Positions 17,443 to 25,267 of a stretch of DNA of 35,969 nt are shown here, in pieces. Below the pieces are notes generated by a model. The model worked only from the letters and a program-made list of their open reading frames with translations, had not been told where the DNA came from and made no database searches. Both the position numbers and the translations under genes were made by a program. The number at the start of each line of letters is the position of its first letter. The first letter of the stretch is position 1. This DNA comes from an uncultured Clostridia bacterium (GTDB taxonomy: Bacteria > Bacillota > Clostridia > Oscillospirales > Ruminococcaceae): positions 1 through 35,969 of the forward strand of contig CANRLU010000012.1 in assembly GCA_947631535.1 (NCBI GenBank). The letters are read 5' to 3'.

Positions 17443-17483
17443 CTCTCATACCTCCAAAAGGACTTTATAAAAGAGCCGGCACT

Positions 17484-17504
17484 ACATTATTTGTATAATG
17501 TAGT
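17484..17504 (+). repeat. Left inverted repeat arm (IRL) of invertible element
   Basis: ACATTATTTGTATAATGTAGT, exact reverse complement of 17723-17743. Confidence 0.95.
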
Positions 17505-17658
17505 ACCGGAATAGCAGTCGGAGTGAGGGATAGTTCAATTTTAATATGCCGAAAAGAAAAAAGACATAATAACAACCCCCGTATGTAAAAATTTACCGCG
17601 AGGAAGTGTTCATTATGCCGAATATTGATTTAGGGAGTAATAAATTTTTCAAAAAATA

Positions 17659-17687
17659 TTGACATTTTCAGAGCTCTGTGATAAAAT
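17659..17687 (+). promoter_or_regulatory. Sigma70/SigA-type promoter inside invertible element, currently pointing away from the adhesin
   Basis: TTGACA (17659-17664), 17-nt spacer, TAAAAT (17682-17687), with an A/T-rich UP-like tract just upstream (17638-17658). Confidence 0.85.
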
Positions 17688-17691
17688 TGTG

Positions 17692-17720
17692 ACCGAATAG
17701 TTGATGGAAGACTATTCGGT
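17692..17720. promoter_or_regulatory. Stem-loop at the predicted transcript 5' end
   Basis: ACCGAATAG-ttgatggaaga-CTATTCGGT, 9-bp perfect stem, 11-nt loop. Confidence 0.7.
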
Positions 17721-17722
17721 TT

Positions 17723-17743
17723 ACTACATTATACAAATAATGT
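17723..17743 (-). repeat. Right inverted repeat arm (IRR) of invertible element
   Basis: ACTACATTATACAAATAATGT, exact reverse complement of 17484-17504. Confidence 0.95.
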
Positions 17744-17750
17744 TGTTATA

Positions 17751-18590
17751 TCACGTCCAGCTGGGAATAAGGCGAAGACTCTCGATCTGCCGGCGATGCT
17801 CTGCGCCGGAGGTCATTATATATATGCGCGTTGTGTTTATCGACGTGTGACCCAAGATATCCGCGAGCCGCGCGATATCTTTTTCTATGCTGTAAAATGA
17901 CCGCGCGAAAAGCTTGCGTAAGTTATGCGGAAACACTTTTGTCGGCATAACTCCTGCCCTAAGGCAGAGCCTTTTCATCGCGGTCCAGATATTTGAGCGG
18001 TCTATCGGGCGCCCCGAACGCGTTCGGAAGATTATTCCGCTCTTTATTTTATGCTTCCTGACGTAAGCGTTCAATTTTTTTGCGAGTTCCCTCGGTATTA
18101 TTATATTTCTGAACTTATTCTTGCATCTTACCGTGACCTCCCCCTTTTTTATCGTCTCGACCGTGAAATATTGCAGTTCCGATACCCTGATTCCCGTCGA
18201 GCAGATCGTCTGAAGAATCAGGCTGAGGCGTTCTGCGGTTCGGGCTGCATCGAGCAGGCGGATATATTCTGCTTTGGTGAGCTCCTTCTCTGCCGGACTG
18301 AAAAGCTCCTTCTGAGCTTTCATATAGCTCACCGTGCAATCCGGTCTGCCGATGAACTTCACAAAGCTGTTGACCGACGCCAGCATGGTATTGACACTGC
18401 CTGCGGTATATCGGCCAAGACCGATGAGATGGTTTTTGTAGCTGATGCAAAGTTCCTTTGTTATGGGCTCGCTGCCGGCAAATTCCAGAAAGCCCTGCAC
18501 ATCTCTGACGTATTTTGAAATCGTAACCGCCGATTTCTCTTCGCTGTCAAGATGCGCCTTGAATTCAGCGAGAATTGTGCTGTTAGTCAT
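17751..18590 (-). CDS. Tyrosine recombinase / phage-integrase family site-specific recombinase (candidate invertase for the adjacent switch)
   Basis: 279 aa; catalytic motifs CSTGIRVSEL (Arg), VRCKNKFRNIIIP (Lys hairpin), HNLRKLFARSFY (HxxR), LGHTSINTTRIYI (H..Y); N-terminal SAM-like core-binding region; GGAG at 18599-18602. Confidence 0.95.
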   Translation of the reverse strand: MTNSTILAEFKAHLDSEEKSAVTISKYVRDVQGFLEFAGSEPITKELCISYKNHLIGLGRYTAGSVNTMLASVNSFVKFIGRPDCTVSYMKAQKELFSPAEKELTKAEYIRLLDAARTAERLSLILQTICSTGIRVSELQYFTVETIKKGEVTVRCKNKFRNIIIPRELAKKLNAYVRKHKIKSGIIFRTRSGRPIDRSNIWTAMKRLCLRAGVMPTKVFPHNLRKLFARSFYSIEKDIARLADILGHTSINTTRIYIMTSGAEHRRQIESLRLIPSWT

Positions 18591-18646: not shown

Positions 18647-18675
18647 ATTATGAACAAAAAATCACAAAATGTCAA
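18647..18675 (-). promoter_or_regulatory. Promoter of the recombinase gene
   Basis: Minus strand TTGACA (18675-18670), 17-nt spacer, CATAAT (18652-18647). Confidence 0.75.
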
Positions 18676-18844: not shown

Positions 18845-18886
18845 GTAAAAAATCCCCCGCCCGCACTCAACTGAGTGCGGGCGGGG
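18845..18886 (-). terminator. Rho-independent terminator of the S8 protease gene
   Basis: 15-bp perfect stem CCCCGCCCGCACTCA/TGAGTGCGGGCGGGG (18855-18869 / 18872-18886), followed on the minus strand by GATTTTTTACATT. Confidence 0.9.
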
Positions 18887-18911
18887 ATCATATTAAACGC
18901 TAAGCTGTTTG

Positions 18912-21900
18912 TCAGCCTTCTGTTTCCGTACGGGCATATCTGCCTTCGGTGGGGACTTCCACAGTGGTGTTGTCCCCGTCGTTCACGATTTCGCTCACGG
19001 CGAGTTCAAGGCTTCCGCCGCTGTAAACGAGGGTCAGGCTTATGGTGCTGCCCGAAACTGCGGTAACGGTGCTGCCGTTTACTCCGAATCCGGCGCCCGA
19101 AACGAGCGTGAAGTAAGCGGAGGCGTTTCCGGCTCTTACAACGCGGCTGCCGAAGCTTACGCCGGTGAAGTATGCCTTGCCGTCGGCTCCGGTGAACATT
19201 GAACCGGTCGCGGAGCTGAGCGAGAGGATCACGGAGGGAACGGGGTTGCCGTTTTCATCTACGACCGTAAATTCGATGTTCACGGTCTCGGTGCTGCCCG
19301 GGTGAGGCACGGGCTGCGCATAAGGAGCTATATAGCCGCAGACGCTGCAGACGTTTCCTGTGAACACGTGATATGCCGCCTGACCTACATAGTCGCCGTC
19401 GAGGCAGACCTGCCAGTGGGCGCTTGTGTTGTATCTCCACACAAGATCATGCGTGTGTACGGGTTTTCCGACTACCTGTATCACGTAGTGGGCGGTAACG
19501 CTCTGGTTGCTCGCCGATTTTACGGTGACGGTGGTCACTCCCTCGCCGACAACGGTAACTACGCCGTTCTGATCGACCGTCACAACGCTTGCGTCGCTCG
19601 TCTGCCAGATGAGGTCGTCGGGCAGAGGAATTTCGTTGCCGTCGCCGTCGTAAGCCCTGAGCACGAGCTGAACGGGGTTGCTGCCCTCTTCGAGGACGAG
19701 GCTGTAGCTGACGTTTTCAATGCTCTCAAATCCCGTGGTGTCGGGAACGAGGGTGATGCTGCCGTCGGTAGAGGGCTTATACACAACTACCGTCCAGGTA
19801 ACGCTCATTGTGCCGGCCTTGTTGGTGGCGGTGAGGAGATATATGCCGGGGGCGTTCGGGGTGAACGTTACGGAATTGCGGCTGTCGGAATTTTCAATGA
19901 GAGTGCCGTAATTCGCGAGCGGGCTGCCGTCGGCTGCGGTGACGCTCCAGTTGAACGGACCGTTTATGCCGTCAACTTCGCTGCCCTCGCCCTCTGAAGG
20001 ATCGACAAATCCGGGAGGAGGCGTTGTGCCCTGAGAATCGGAATTGGGAACTCCGTCGGCGGTTATTACGAGCATAGTATCGGAGGAATAAGGTAGAGTA
20101 TCGACCCAAATTCTGCCGGTAGTTTCGTCGTAAGTCCACTGCCTGTAATAGCTGCTGTTGTTTCTGGGGGTATAATAATTGCCGGTCAGGCTGTAGTTGC
20201 CCACATGGACATCCGCTTCCTTGGGAAGATCATAGCCGGGCATCGCGACGATATATCCTTCGTACTGCGCACCCGCTTCGCCGGTGGAGGGAACGATGTA
20301 AAGTCCGACGGCATCATCGGTCGAGGCGTAGCCGTCCCAGTTGTTTTCGTCCCAATAGAAACCTTCGGCGGTGCAGACCTTTATCCTGACCTGATCTCTC
20401 GGAGGCTGGTGGAGGGAAGTGTTGTAATACTGCGCCGCGGCATCAACGCTTTCGCCGAGGGTGATATACTTTGTCATACCCTGCGAATATTCCGCGGAAA
20501 TAAGGTAATCCTCCGCGTCGGGAATGGCGTAGAATATCTGCGTGGACTTGGTGCAGCCGTTGAGAGTGACGGTGAGGGTGGCTGCGCCGGCAGTGCCGGG
20601 CTCATAAATGCTGAGCGCGTCGGAGCTGAGGCTTATAGTCGCCTCTTTCTGATAATAAGCTCTGCCGGGGATATCGTTTACGGTGAGGGTGAACGGGTCG
20701 CCGCCCTCGTCGTAATACTGCCAGTTCGGGTCGGTTATCTCCCAGACGCACTCGGTTATCACGGGAGCGTTAGCGCCGTTGAATTCGACGGGAATTATAT
20801 CCTCGACCCTGATGTCTATCGACTGGTTGGGAATAAGGGTTTTGTAATTCTCGACAGAGAATCTGAAGTCTGTGATCTCGGAGGCTCTCTCCCTTACGGT
20901 GATGACCACCTTGGCAGTCTTGCCGGCCTTTTCAAGGGTGATGACTGCCGTGCCTGCGCCTACCGCGGTGATATAGCCGTTTTCGTCAACGGTGGCAACG
21001 GTCTCGTCACTCGAAGTATAGGTTATTGCTCCGTCGGCTCCGGTGTTGTCGATAACGGTAAGAGCCGCGCCGTCGCCGACATAGAGGTCGCCGTATTCCC
21101 AGACTGCGTTGAGCTCGCCCTCGGCCGTGGCCTTGTCGTTGATCTGGAATACATAGGCGGCGTCGTTAGCGCCGTAGTCGCCGCAGAACACATAGAAGGT
21201 CCCGCTGTCCCAGGTCACGTCATACATTCCGTAGGGGCCTTCCTCGTAATAGGCCTCGGGGTCGGGAATGACGCAGCTGTAGGTGTAGGTGTGAAGGTCT
21301 TCGTCGTAGAAGAGCTTGGCGTCGATGGGATCGCCCATATAGTACTCCACGAGCTGCATGCCCGACGCCTGCGCTCTTTCGATGTATTCTTCCTTTACGG
21401 TGTAGGTGAGATAGGGGTCGATCTCGATGGAAGCTATAGAGCCCACGCCGTCGTCAAACGTACATTCAAAGAGATATGTGCCGTCCTCCTGCTTGGTGAG
21501 CGAAGCCGCGCTGCCCACGAGCTCGGGGGCAGAGGTGTCAACGAGAATGTCATACGAGATAATGTCGCCGGTCATATCCATCTTATGACCGTTGAAGGTG
21601 GGCCAGCTCTCGGGGTCGTTTACGTAGATCTCGTCGGCATAGGCCTCGGAAATGCCGGTCTCCTCATCGACATAATATTCATAGTCGCCGTCGCCGAAGG
21701 CCGCAATGCTGAATACGAGCTGCGTGCCGTCGGGCAGGGTCTCAAGCTCTCCGGTGTCGTAATCCACTACCTTTTCGCCGTTGTAGGAGAAGCCGAAGTT
21801 CATAAGCTGAAGCGAAAGCGGATAGGGAACGTAAACGCCGTATTCGCCGTCATAGCTGAAAGGCGTTCTCGGGAAGCAGGAAATATACGTGCGGTAGTAA

Positions 21901-24900
21901 ATTTCGCCGCTGTTCTTATCCGACACCTCAAACATCATGATCCTCGCGTCGCGGAGCTGATAGAACTCGAAGTAGTTGATGCCGTCGAGATATCCGTCTT
22001 CGTTGGGCGAAATGGTGAAGTTGCCCTGATAATAGGGGCCGTCGTTTATCATCTGGGCGATATCCACGTCGAACGGGTTTGCGCCGAGAAGAGTGGGTAT
22101 GCTCTGATACTGGGTGAAGCTGCCCGCCATTCCGTAGAACGGTCCGTAAACAGTGGGTTCGACAAACACGGTGTCTTCAAGCTTTTCGCTGTAGTTGCCG
22201 TTGCCGTCGGAAACTTCCCACCACTGAATGTTGTCGAATATCGGAGCGGCAGTCCAGTCGCCGGCAAAGCCCATAAACGGCAGACCGATAGTGGGTATAT
22301 CCTCTCCTACGGGGGTGAGGATTATATATCCTTCGATGTAGGTGCCGTTGGGAGAGGCAAGCTTTATTGCCTCGGCGTCATAATCAACGGTGCCGCTGAC
22401 AGTCGTGCGCGAAGAAATGCCGGACTCGACGCTTATCGTGCCTATAGTCGTGCTGGAAAGAACGGTGTCGTGCTCACCGTAAGCGAGCTTATTGTTGGCC
22501 GACAGCAGCTCGGGAGTCATAACAACGAGCTCTGCGCTGTAGGTGTGGCTCTCCATAGTGGTGTTAACGAGGTCAAACGAGTAGTCAAAGCTGCCCGACC
22601 AGTCGGCGTCGTCAAGGAGTTCGAGCTTTCCTACGTTCTCGCCGGCAACGTCGGCATAAACGGGAGTTTTTATCGCAGCACCCGCATTTACGAGGCCTGC
22701 GCCCTGAATACGCGGCGAAACATATCCGCCGGTAACGGTGTCTTCAATCGGTACCGCGGTGGATATCATAAGGTGCTCGACGAAATCGGCTCTTTCCGCG
22801 GTGCTTCTGTTCTGATAATAGGGATTGCCGCTCGCGCTGAGCGCCTGCGAAATAAGCGCCGCGATGCCGCTGATGTGAGGCGCGGCCATAGAGGTGCCGC
22901 TCATATAATCGTAAGTGCCGTCGTAATCGTCATATGTACCGGATAAGTATTCGGTATTGAACGACGTGTCGGGAATAGTGGAGTAGACCATTCCGCCGGG
23001 CGCGGTTATATCGGGCTTGAGCTCAAGACCCGGGCCGCCGCCCCAAGAGGTGAAGCTCGACATCTGGCCGGGCTGGTCGATGTCTTCGGGGGTAACGGGC
23101 CATTCCGCGGCCTCTTCCTCGGTACTGACGAAGGTTATGGTGACGGGCTTGCCCGCGGCTATTGCAGCGGCCATTTCCTCACCGTCGGCCTGGCTTATCG
23201 AGATGGCGGGATAGTTCATGCTCGGCCTGTAAAGACCGCTGAGGTCCATAGAGAAATCGCCGGGCTCGTTGTTGTAAACGATTATGCCTCTCAGACCCTG
23301 GGTCGGGAAGCTCGTATATGTAGTCGGATTGTAGGGGGCGATCTGGTTGCTGCCGTTGTTGCAGTTCATGGCGTTCATGACTTTTGTCGCAAAGTCTATC
23401 TCACCTCTCTTAACGAGCGCAAAACCGGAATCTTCGCCGTTTCTCACCGGCTGATAGCCGGGAGGCAGGTGATCTTCGCGCACCCAATCATACTCCTCGT
23501 AGTCCGACTGATAGCCGAGGCCGCAGTCGTAAACGGTGTTGTTGCCCTCAAGGGTGTCCTTGGGGTTCACCTCTCCGAAGAGATAGCTCTGGACGTAGCT
23601 GCTGCCGCCGTTTGACGTTCCGGTGTCGTTATACCTTATTTTATGGTCCTGCTCGCCGTCGTTCCAAATAAGGTAGGTGGCGCCGTATACCTCGGTGTTG
23701 ACCGAAGCGACGGCTATGGCCGTGCCGTAGATGGCGGGGCTCGAAGTCATGGTTACGTCGGGGTTCTCGGCGTAGGCAAGACCGCCGGTGTAGCTGTTGA
23801 GCTGCTGGGAATTGCCCGCGTTGCCGTTCGAGACAGAGGCTACAACGCCGAATTCTTCGAGCATTTCAAAGAAGAGCTCATAGGCGGTGTCTTCGTGGGC
23901 AAAGCCGTTGTCGGAACCGAGAGAAAGGTTCACAACGTCGGCTCCGAGATATGCGGCGTCGTTGAGAGCGGCAAGGAGCGGAGTCGAAGAAGTCATAGTG
24001 CCGTCGTCGTCAAACACCTTCATAAACATAAGCTGCGCGTCGGGGGCGATGCCCGAGAACTTCACGGCTCCGTCTTCGGTCTCGGAATAGCCGAGAATGG
24101 TTCCCGAAACGTGAGTGCCGTGGGTCTCGAGCGAACGGACGTTGCTGTCCACCCTGCCGTCGTCGGCCATATGGGAATAGTCGGCGGCATAAGGAACCTT
24201 GAGGGTCTTATACCAGTTCGCGCCCGAGCCGGGAGCGAGCGTTTCGGAGGCAAGAAGGTCTCCGAGCGACGAAACTACCTTGGCGATAGAGTTTTTGGTG
24301 TAGGAAACGAAGTTTATCGGGTCGTCCGACTTGAAGGAGTCGTCGCGGAAAGCCTCGTGGCTGCCGCGCACGCCGGTAACGTTGTCGCCGACAGAATAGT
24401 CATACCAGGAGCCGTAGAAAATGTCGAGAGAAGTATCCAGAACGGCTACCACCATTCCCTGACCGGTGTAGCCCGCTTTCCAGAGGTCGTTCACTCCGGC
24501 CTGAGCATAGCTGTATTTCTCGATGCCGCCGACAAGGGGCTCGAGCTCCTCGTCCGAGGGGATGGAGTAGGTCTTTTCAACGTATGCGGTCTTAACGCCG
24601 TCGAGCTTTTTGACCTGTTCGAGAAGCCCGTAGGGCATCTTCACGGACATGGCGTTGATGACGCCGGTGAACTGCGCCACGAGCTCAACGCCGTTTGCGG
24701 GCATCGAGTAGGCGGCAATGCCGCTTTCGGAGTCGTTGAGCGAGAGCGAGCCGATCCTTGAAACGAGGTCGAGCTGCTGCGCTCTGTTCTGCTCCGATAC
24801 CCTGAGGGCGTCGTCGCTTGTGAGGAAGGTCGAGAGCTTTTTGCCTGCGCTGAGCGTCTCGGCGGCATACTCTCCGGCCGCCACGGGCATTGCCGGATTG

Positions 24901-25175
24901 TAGTAGTTTGCTGCGGCGGGTGCGTCGAGCACTACTATTACGGTGACTGTTTCATCGGGCTCATAGTGCTCGAACCTGTCGGTTTTGGCGGTCTGCACAT
25001 CGGCGCCGCCTCTTACGGGGCGGGAAACGTCTGCCCTTTCGCCCGCGATGATCCTCGTGGCGCTCTCGGCATCGGCTTCCGCCTCGGCCGCAAACGCGGT
25101 GAAAGGCACCATGCCCGCAATCAAACATACCGCTGTCAAAGATGCAAGAATCTTCTTAAGCATCAAATGTTTCAT
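18912..25175 (-). CDS. Secreted subtilisin-like serine protease (S8 family) with Ig-like (Big_2-type) repeats
   Basis: Signal peptide MKHLMLKKILASLTAVCLIAGMVPFTAFAAEA; triad motifs VVAVLDTSLD, ETHGTHVSGT, YMSGTSMAAPHISG; Big_2-like ITYTSSDETVATVDENGYITAVGAGTAVITLEKAGKTAKVVI. Start placed at 25175 (AAGGAG RBS) rather than 25214. Confidence 0.95.
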   Translation of the reverse strand: MKHLMLKKILASLTAVCLIAGMVPFTAFAAEAEADAESATRIIAGERADVSRPVRGGADVQTAKTDRFEHYEPDETVTVIVVLDAPAAANYYNPAMPVAAGEYAAETLSAGKKLSTFLTSDDALRVSEQNRAQQLDLVSRIGSLSLNDSESGIAAYSMPANGVELVAQFTGVINAMSVKMPYGLLEQVKKLDGVKTAYVEKTYSIPSDEELEPLVGGIEKYSYAQAGVNDLWKAGYTGQGMVVAVLDTSLDIFYGSWYDYSVGDNVTGVRGSHEAFRDDSFKSDDPINFVSYTKNSIAKVVSSLGDLLASETLAPGSGANWYKTLKVPYAADYSHMADDGRVDSNVRSLETHGTHVSGTILGYSETEDGAVKFSGIAPDAQLMFMKVFDDDGTMTSSTPLLAALNDAAYLGADVVNLSLGSDNGFAHEDTAYELFFEMLEEFGVVASVSNGNAGNSQQLNSYTGGLAYAENPDVTMTSSPAIYGTAIAVASVNTEVYGATYLIWNDGEQDHKIRYNDTGTSNGGSSYVQSYLFGEVNPKDTLEGNNTVYDCGLGYQSDYEEYDWVREDHLPPGYQPVRNGEDSGFALVKRGEIDFATKVMNAMNCNNGSNQIAPYNPTTYTSFPTQGLRGIIVYNNEPGDFSMDLSGLYRPSMNYPAISISQADGEEMAAAIAAGKPVTITFVSTEEEAAEWPVTPEDIDQPGQMSSFTSWGGGPGLELKPDITAPGGMVYSTIPDTSFNTEYLSGTYDDYDGTYDYMSGTSMAAPHISGIAALISQALSASGNPYYQNRSTAERADFVEHLMISTAVPIEDTVTGGYVSPRIQGAGLVNAGAAIKTPVYADVAGENVGKLELLDDADWSGSFDYSFDLVNTTMESHTYSAELVVMTPELLSANNKLAYGEHDTVLSSTTIGTISVESGISSRTTVSGTVDYDAEAIKLASPNGTYIEGYIILTPVGEDIPTIGLPFMGFAGDWTAAPIFDNIQWWEVSDGNGNYSEKLEDTVFVEPTVYGPFYGMAGSFTQYQSIPTLLGANPFDVDIAQMINDGPYYQGNFTISPNEDGYLDGINYFEFYQLRDARIMMFEVSDKNSGEIYYRTYISCFPRTPFSYDGEYGVYVPYPLSLQLMNFGFSYNGEKVVDYDTGELETLPDGTQLVFSIAAFGDGDYEYYVDEETGISEAYADEIYVNDPESWPTFNGHKMDMTGDIISYDILVDTSAPELVGSAASLTKQEDGTYLFECTFDDGVGSIASIEIDPYLTYTVKEEYIERAQASGMQLVEYYMGDPIDAKLFYDEDLHTYTYSCVIPDPEAYYEEGPYGMYDVTWDSGTFYVFCGDYGANDAAYVFQINDKATAEGELNAVWEYGDLYVGDGAALTVIDNTGADGAITYTSSDETVATVDENGYITAVGAGTAVITLEKAGKTAKVVITVRERASEITDFRFSVENYKTLIPNQSIDIRVEDIIPVEFNGANAPVITECVWEITDPNWQYYDEGGDPFTLTVNDIPGRAYYQKEATISLSSDALSIYEPGTAGAATLTVTLNGCTKSTQIFYAIPDAEDYLISAEYSQGMTKYITLGESVDAAAQYYNTSLHQPPRDQVRIKVCTAEGFYWDENNWDGYASTDDAVGLYIVPSTGEAGAQYEGYIVAMPGYDLPKEADVHVGNYSLTGNYYTPRNNSSYYRQWTYDETTGRIWVDTLPYSSDTMLVITADGVPNSDSQGTTPPPGFVDPSEGEGSEVDGINGPFNWSVTAADGSPLANYGTLIENSDSRNSVTFTPNAPGIYLLTATNKAGTMSVTWTVVVYKPSTDGSITLVPDTTGFESIENVSYSLVLEEGSNPVQLVLRAYDGDGNEIPLPDDLIWQTSDASVVTVDQNGVVTVVGEGVTTVTVKSASNQSVTAHYVIQVVGKPVHTHDLVWRYNTSAHWQVCLDGDYVGQAAYHVFTGNVCSVCGYIAPYAQPVPHPGSTETVNIEFTVVDENGNPVPSVILSLSSATGSMFTGADGKAYFTGVSFGSRVVRAGNASAYFTLVSGAGFGVNGSTVTAVSGSTISLTLVYSGGSLELAVSEIVNDGDNTTVEVPTEGRYARTETEG

Positions 25176-25267
25176 TTGCTTTTCTCCTTTTAAATTTATT
25201 CTCCCACCGTGCAAAATGTATATTTATGAATTTTACATAAACCTTCGGCACGATACAAGTTGTAATT

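Follow-up and report, generated by a model that had tools for sequence, protein, structure and literature searches.

A recombinase-adjacent invertible segment as a very probable promoter switch for a giant adhesin in a gut Clostridia bacterium

A short intergenic region between a giant adhesin gene and a tyrosine recombinase gene in a gut Clostridia bacterium very probably acts as a self-contained ON/OFF promoter switch, run by the adjacent recombinase and controlling the adhesin. The locus was found in a stretch of 35,969 nucleotides (hereafter the window), and its parts, their orientation and the intact catalytic residues of the enzyme can be read from the sequence, as can inversion across a family of related loci. 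An initial annotation of the window had proposed that one recombinase flips one promoter to turn the adhesin on or off, and this is supported by the family-wide inversion and by the pairing of recombinase and site described below.

Architecture of the locus

Table 1 Features of the switch locus in the window.
Feature	Position	Strand	Basis
Gene for a giant surface protein (adhesin) of at least 5814 aa, cut off by the contig end	1..17442	-	Uninterrupted frame; Pfam
Ribosome-binding site GGAGGT, 7 nt ahead of the adhesin ATG	17450..17455	-	Sequence
Terminator-like hairpin, 15 pairs then CTCTTTTATA, before the adhesin	17476..17509	-	Fold
Adhesin-side arm, recombination site ACATTAT-N4-ATAATGT plus flanks	17481..17504	.	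Sequence
Invertible segment, 218 bp	17505..17722	.	Sequence; orientation test in family
Promoter TTGACA-N17-TAAAAT directed at the recombinase (OFF in the assembly)	17659..17687	+	Sequence
Hairpin CCGAATAGT...ACTATTCGG, start of the invertible promoter's transcript	17693..17719	+	Sequence; fold
Recombinase-side arm, reverse complement of the adhesin-side arm at 23/24	17723..17746	.	Sequence
XerA-like tyrosine recombinase, 279 aa	17751..18590	-	ORF, domain and profile searches
Promoter-like site TTGACA-N17-CATAAT for the recombinase	18647..18675	-	Consensus match only
Strong intrinsic terminator 3' of the upstream subtilase gene, insulating the recombinase unit	18854..18887	-	Sequence

The 21-bp perfect inverted repeats initially noted around the 218-bp segment were recovered at the same coordinates (17484–17504 and 17723–17743) and form the perfect stretch of two 24-nt arms differing at a single position. 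This mismatch falls outside the core, and core sites and spacers match perfectly between the arms. Two features go beyond the initial annotation: the promoter is directed away from the adhesin, and each arm forms a palindrome of its own about a 4-nt spacer (ACATTAT-TTGT-ATAATGT on the adhesin side), the form that would be expected of a tyrosine-recombinase core site. The arm pair is the longest exact inverted repeat (22 nt) within 600 bp anywhere in the window, compared with a maximum of 14 in 20 shuffles and of 14 around 25 Xer-like control recombinases, ignoring a masked stretch (a 50-nt 'repeat' at one control locus proved to be masked N), and is thus well above chance. A search of the genome returned no further arm copies, the arms being unique.

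The enclosed TTGACA-N17-TAAAAT promoter was likewise confirmed and, because its strand (+) is opposite to that of recombinase and adhesin (both -), the assembled state is OFF. The adhesin ATG (17442–17440) is 41 bp beyond the adhesin-side arm, in keeping with the 40–60 bp first given for start codon and ribosome-binding site. Its reading frame stays open for at least 5814 codons up to the contig end, beginning with a signal peptide (read by eye) and encoding a VWA domain, nine DUF7601 domains, six DUF11 domains and three Spy0128-like isopeptide (FctA) stretches according to Pfam. A second large surface gene stands beside the switch: upstream on the same strand (18912–25214) lies a 2100-aa S8 subtilase that carries Big_2 domains and is related to LPXTG-anchored serine peptidases.

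The recombinase stop codon is 7 bp from the 21-bp arm, as first reported, and the description of the enzyme as intact also stands: it is full length and retains R135, K157/K159, H222, R225, H248 and Y257, whose catalytic roles are assigned from the known tyrosine-recombinase fold and which are near-invariant across 124 family members. It comprises a SAM-like and a catalytic domain, with XerA as the best curated model and PDB entries 4a8e and 5hxy as solved relatives, and yet it scores below every Xer equivalog cut-off (XerA 130/220, XerC 98/335 and XerD 97/330 bits). Scores against the FimB/FimE models PRK09870/PRK09871 were 20 bits, compared with cut-offs of 221–222 (E-value about 3e-4 to 6e-4), and the extra N-terminal SAM-like domain sets the enzyme apart from FimB/FimE. 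A genome search for a second family recombinase returned only one distant Xer-like protein.

Proposed mechanism

We propose that the recombinase binds both palindromic arms as half-site pairs (ACATTAT/ATAATGT) and exchanges strands within the spacer, whereupon the 218-bp segment would invert. In the ON orientation the enclosed sigma-A-type promoter would drive the giant VWA/isopeptide surface protein, which we would expect to be expressed in this state only. In the OFF orientation, as assembled, the promoter points to the recombinase 3' end and a terminator-like hairpin precedes the adhesin. As the OFF promoter fires toward the recombinase 3' end, antisense transcription that dampens the recombinase, a feedback on its own switching, is plausible in this state.

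The promoter is a conserved part of related loci, with 17-nt spacing at 75 of the 81 loci where it was called, an extended -10 TG at 55 of these, and a median of 75 nt between -35 and arm; scores of 11.5 or more were reached by 53 loci, versus 5 of the shuffled segments. Because of this conservation, we conclude that flipping would switch the downstream gene's transcription between on and off. A family-wide role for the OFF-state terminator was considered and rejected. At this locus, folding indicates that the hairpin before the adhesin is terminator-like in OFF only, inversion removing its CCGG clamp, and it is as a feature of this locus alone that we retain it, because among the 86 loci with called orientation, from 110 folded in both orientations, the gene-side arm was more stable in OFF at 36 and less stable at 31.

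A recombinase family with a shared site rule

A protein search recovered the family recombinase in 61 of 391 Clostridia species genomes (43 of 223 genera), so that about one in six sampled Clostridia species carry the enzyme-plus-switch unit, and in 70 of 299 genomes of the window's own family, with up to six copies per genome. The first protein search had yielded 80 related loci in Clostridia genomes, nearly all of which, where enough downstream sequence was available, have a matching arm pair just 3' of the recombinase stop, with arms about 211–286 bp apart. When protein-search and whole-genome matches were pooled, paired arms with complementary 4-nt spacers were present at 110 of 132 recombinase loci, and an exact inverted repeat of at least 16 nt in 98 of the 106 unique loci whose downstream sequence extends for 450 nt or more.

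After removal of duplicates, 102 loci carry 43 different spacers, complementary inside each locus, a match which we read as the overlap homology needed for strand exchange. As spacer matching was itself a criterion in picking the 110 arm pairs, a DNA-only pattern search of the 391 class genomes, with spacers left free, no protein information and a reversed control, provides an independent test. It matched 23 places in 19 genomes (control matches, 0), with matching spacers in 23/23, and a family recombinase (41–57% identity) adjoins the arm in 19/19 loci retrieved from it.

The usual half-site is ACATAAT, with ACATTAT present in the window, at the same-genus loci L085 and L086, and at L011, L114, L115 and L116. 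This TTAT variant clusters on the tree of recombinases (3 changes compared with 5.9 for shuffled labels, with 0/500 label shuffles as low), which fits enzyme–site co-evolution. The half-site rule (ACATAAT or ACATTAT with a locus-specific matching 4-nt spacer) makes such switches findable from DNA alone and lets switch state be read in metagenomes.

Several loci depart from the standard arrangement. A third arm copy, about 30–65 nt from one arm and with the same spacer, is present in L005, L016, L040, L050, L078, L082, L116, L127, L131, L138, L140, L152 and L157 and would permit alternative inversions or small deletions. At L058, L065, L081, L118 and L127 an arm touches or overlaps the stop codon of the recombinase gene, where orientation could alter the recombinase 3' end or transcript. 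RUG11941 holds three family recombinase copies (L047, L075 and L077) without a recognisable arm, on contigs that end about 130–210 nt (L047, L077) or 528 nt (L075) past the gene. The Pusillibacter faecalis megaplasmid pMM59_01 (L163) carries a 49%-identical recombinase in the same geometry before an S-layer-domain gene, with a different arm of 20 bp (AGACAAAAACAACATTTCGT), while further named gut copies (L164, L166 and L167) have standard arms. A phage origin was not sufficiently supported by a short unannotated phage-labelled record (44%) and one IMG/VR contig (59%).

Evidence for inversion

The initial annotation had suggested asking whether orthologous loci occur in both orientations, and homologous segments do. 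All-against-all comparison gave 353 homologous segment pairs, of which 61 were reversed, and a two-orientation assignment accommodated them with zero contradictions. In one pair of species, represented by L147 and L154, the recombinase flanks run colinear for 1519 nt as far as the inner edge of the arm; the 287-nt arm-to-arm unit then aligns in reverse orientation only (81.5%), after which colinearity resumes in the cargo gene, a pattern of the kind that inversion between the arms leaves behind. Both orientations, as in a fimS-type switch, are therefore present at the family level, and the window's own copy would be expected to flip in the same way.

By promoter direction, 60 loci are OFF, 21 ON and 21 unclear after removal of duplicates. 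Within the window's genus, L085 is OFF and L086 is ON, both with the variant half-site of the window; these two orientations were called from the promoter, the window segment being too poorly alignable to either for the homology test.

Contig ends provide an indirect indication. The contig breaks off no more than 400 nt downstream of the recombinase at 17 of 109 loci, compared with 5 where it does so upstream; six contigs stop 3–5 nt past the 18-nt site core, which places their ends on the inner edge of the arm, and others stop about 77 or 141 nt beyond the arm start, values that metaSPAdes and MEGAHIT usually take as their largest k-mers. Because an assembly graph would branch at those two places, the ends suggest that both states were in the read sets, as expected if both orientations were among the reads, although a few of the genomes could share ancestry.

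A natural locked-ON candidate is present in the same genus. At L086/L169 (G018:C12) the recombinase lacks residues 1–101, which are replaced by unrelated, apparently foreign sequence, and the promoter, in its ON orientation, faces the gene of a surface protein at least 4193 aa long; a lock in ON would be the natural reading.

Alternative explanations

The arms might be operators and the recombinase a domesticated DNA-binding regulator, with a promoter that never flips. Palindromic arms do resemble operators, and no flipping was seen in this genome, known from a single assembly, but near-invariant catalytic residues, spacers that covary as matched pairs and homologous segments in both orientations, up to an exact arm-to-arm inversion, leave this account with almost no credence. 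It is improbable, too, that a switch which formerly flipped is now locked OFF in this lineage and the adhesin silent. Locking probably does happen, because the recombinase of L086/L169 is truncated with the promoter ON, and the arm mismatch and the OFF assembly at the present locus would suit such an outcome; against it, no part of the recombinase or of its set of catalytic residues is missing, core sites and spacers match perfectly, promoter and ribosome-binding site are both intact, and the adhesin reading frame continues uninterrupted for 5814 codons.

The OFF-specific hairpin invites comparison with cwpV, where the switch acts mainly after initiation through an orientation-dependent leader terminator, and would make the internal promoter incidental. 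The OFF arm hairpin here does gain a CCGG clamp and a U-rich tail, the clamp being lost on inversion, but across the family it is promoter position and sequence that are conserved and not OFF-specific arm stability, and we regard this explanation as quite improbable. Equally, the presence of the cassette before unrelated genes in many families and on megaplasmids might suggest a mobile element with the arms as its ends and inversion as a by-product. The recombinase gene, however, is not enclosed by the arms, which are in inverted orientation, and recombination between them therefore inverts rather than excises, so that a mobile element is very unlikely.

Relation to known systems

The fim system is a classical case of a promoter inverted by adjacent tyrosine recombinases. 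The layout had originally been matched both to E. coli fimS with FimB/FimE and to the C. difficile cwpV and flg switches, of which the fimE–fimS comparison holds. As in fimS, an invertible segment encloses a promoter between inverted recombination sites with the switched gene downstream, and, as with fimE, the recombinase gene is immediately upstream of, and co-directional with, a gene for a surface structure. Orientation may also feed back on the recombinase transcript as in fim, where fimS orientation affects fimE mRNA (discussed in PMC5386303). Unlike FimB/FimE, which are of a short type, the window encodes one recombinase, a XerA-like two-domain protein, with different sites, and its target is a single giant adhesin, whereas that of fim is a pilus operon.

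The comparison with C. difficile stands only in part. A clostridial tyrosine recombinase, arms of about 21 bp, a surface-structure target and an OFF-specific terminator-like hairpin are shared with cwpV/flg and RecV, but cwpV and flg have their promoter outside the invertible DNA and are regulated after initiation, and recV is encoded away from cwpV (PMC2784873, PMC5386303), in contrast to the promoter inside the segment and the recombinase stop 7 bp from the arm observed here. XerA, XerC and XerD include the closest curated and solved relatives of the enzyme, which differs from Xer in acting, as we infer, on paired local arms rather than on a single dif site.

The suggestion that the module may be undescribed survives for the locus and its adhesin, which look new, and not for the module type, which is common in Clostridia. 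A 2025 study of the hCom2 gut community describes inverton group 139, comprising 33 invertons, 32 of them from Clostridia, with sizes between arms of, for example, 205 and 227 bp; this group is most strongly linked to a nearby tyrosine-type invertase, group 35, and its flipping is read-proven, with surface-attachment-dependent orientation in Intestinimonas (PMC11892184). The window likewise has a clostridial inverton of comparable size with a nearby tyrosine-type recombinase, and our family is probably inverton group 139/invertase group 35, an assignment that sizes and taxonomy fit. The main text of that study appears to present the group without the spacer rule, promoter geometry or cargo range given here (PMC11892184). 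A literature search for the ACATAAT/ATTATGT motif returned only unrelated papers. Newly described here are the site and spacer rule, the cargo range and this locus with its very large target.

Genes behind the switch

The first genes behind the switch are very diverse across family loci. They include 13 related small membrane proteins, S26 signal peptidases among them, 11 SPFH/zinc-ribbon proteins and 7 helicases of the helicase-associated-domain type, together with TetR-like regulators (identified by eye), histidine kinases, TasA/camelysin-like proteins, collagen-like, GLUG and BspA-LRR surface proteins, dockerin and cohesin proteins, an NRPS, and PLD-SNF2 and TIR-like proteins matching defence models. 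Giant adhesins are one use of a general module.

A wider joint reading, which we offer tentatively and hold to be somewhat doubtful, is that of a transferable cassette placed before dozens of unrelated genes, with private spacers isolating sibling switches and OFF-state antisense feedback on flipping; its cargo would span giant adhesins, collagen-like, BspA-type, TasA/SipW-type and SPFH proteins, TetR regulators, histidine kinases, NRPS and restriction- or defence-like helicases. If the proposed mechanism holds, one standard module would let a common group of gut Clostridia vary very large adhesins from cell to cell, and secretion, regulatory and defence-like genes elsewhere would be varied by the same module. 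With the half-site rule, the broad matter of what gut Clostridia place under phase variation becomes open to direct survey. Among the individual loci, L080, L070, L032, L028 and L038 have switches before PLD-SNF2 helicase, methyltransferase, TIR-like and helicase genes that match phage-defence models, a possible case of phase-variable defence.
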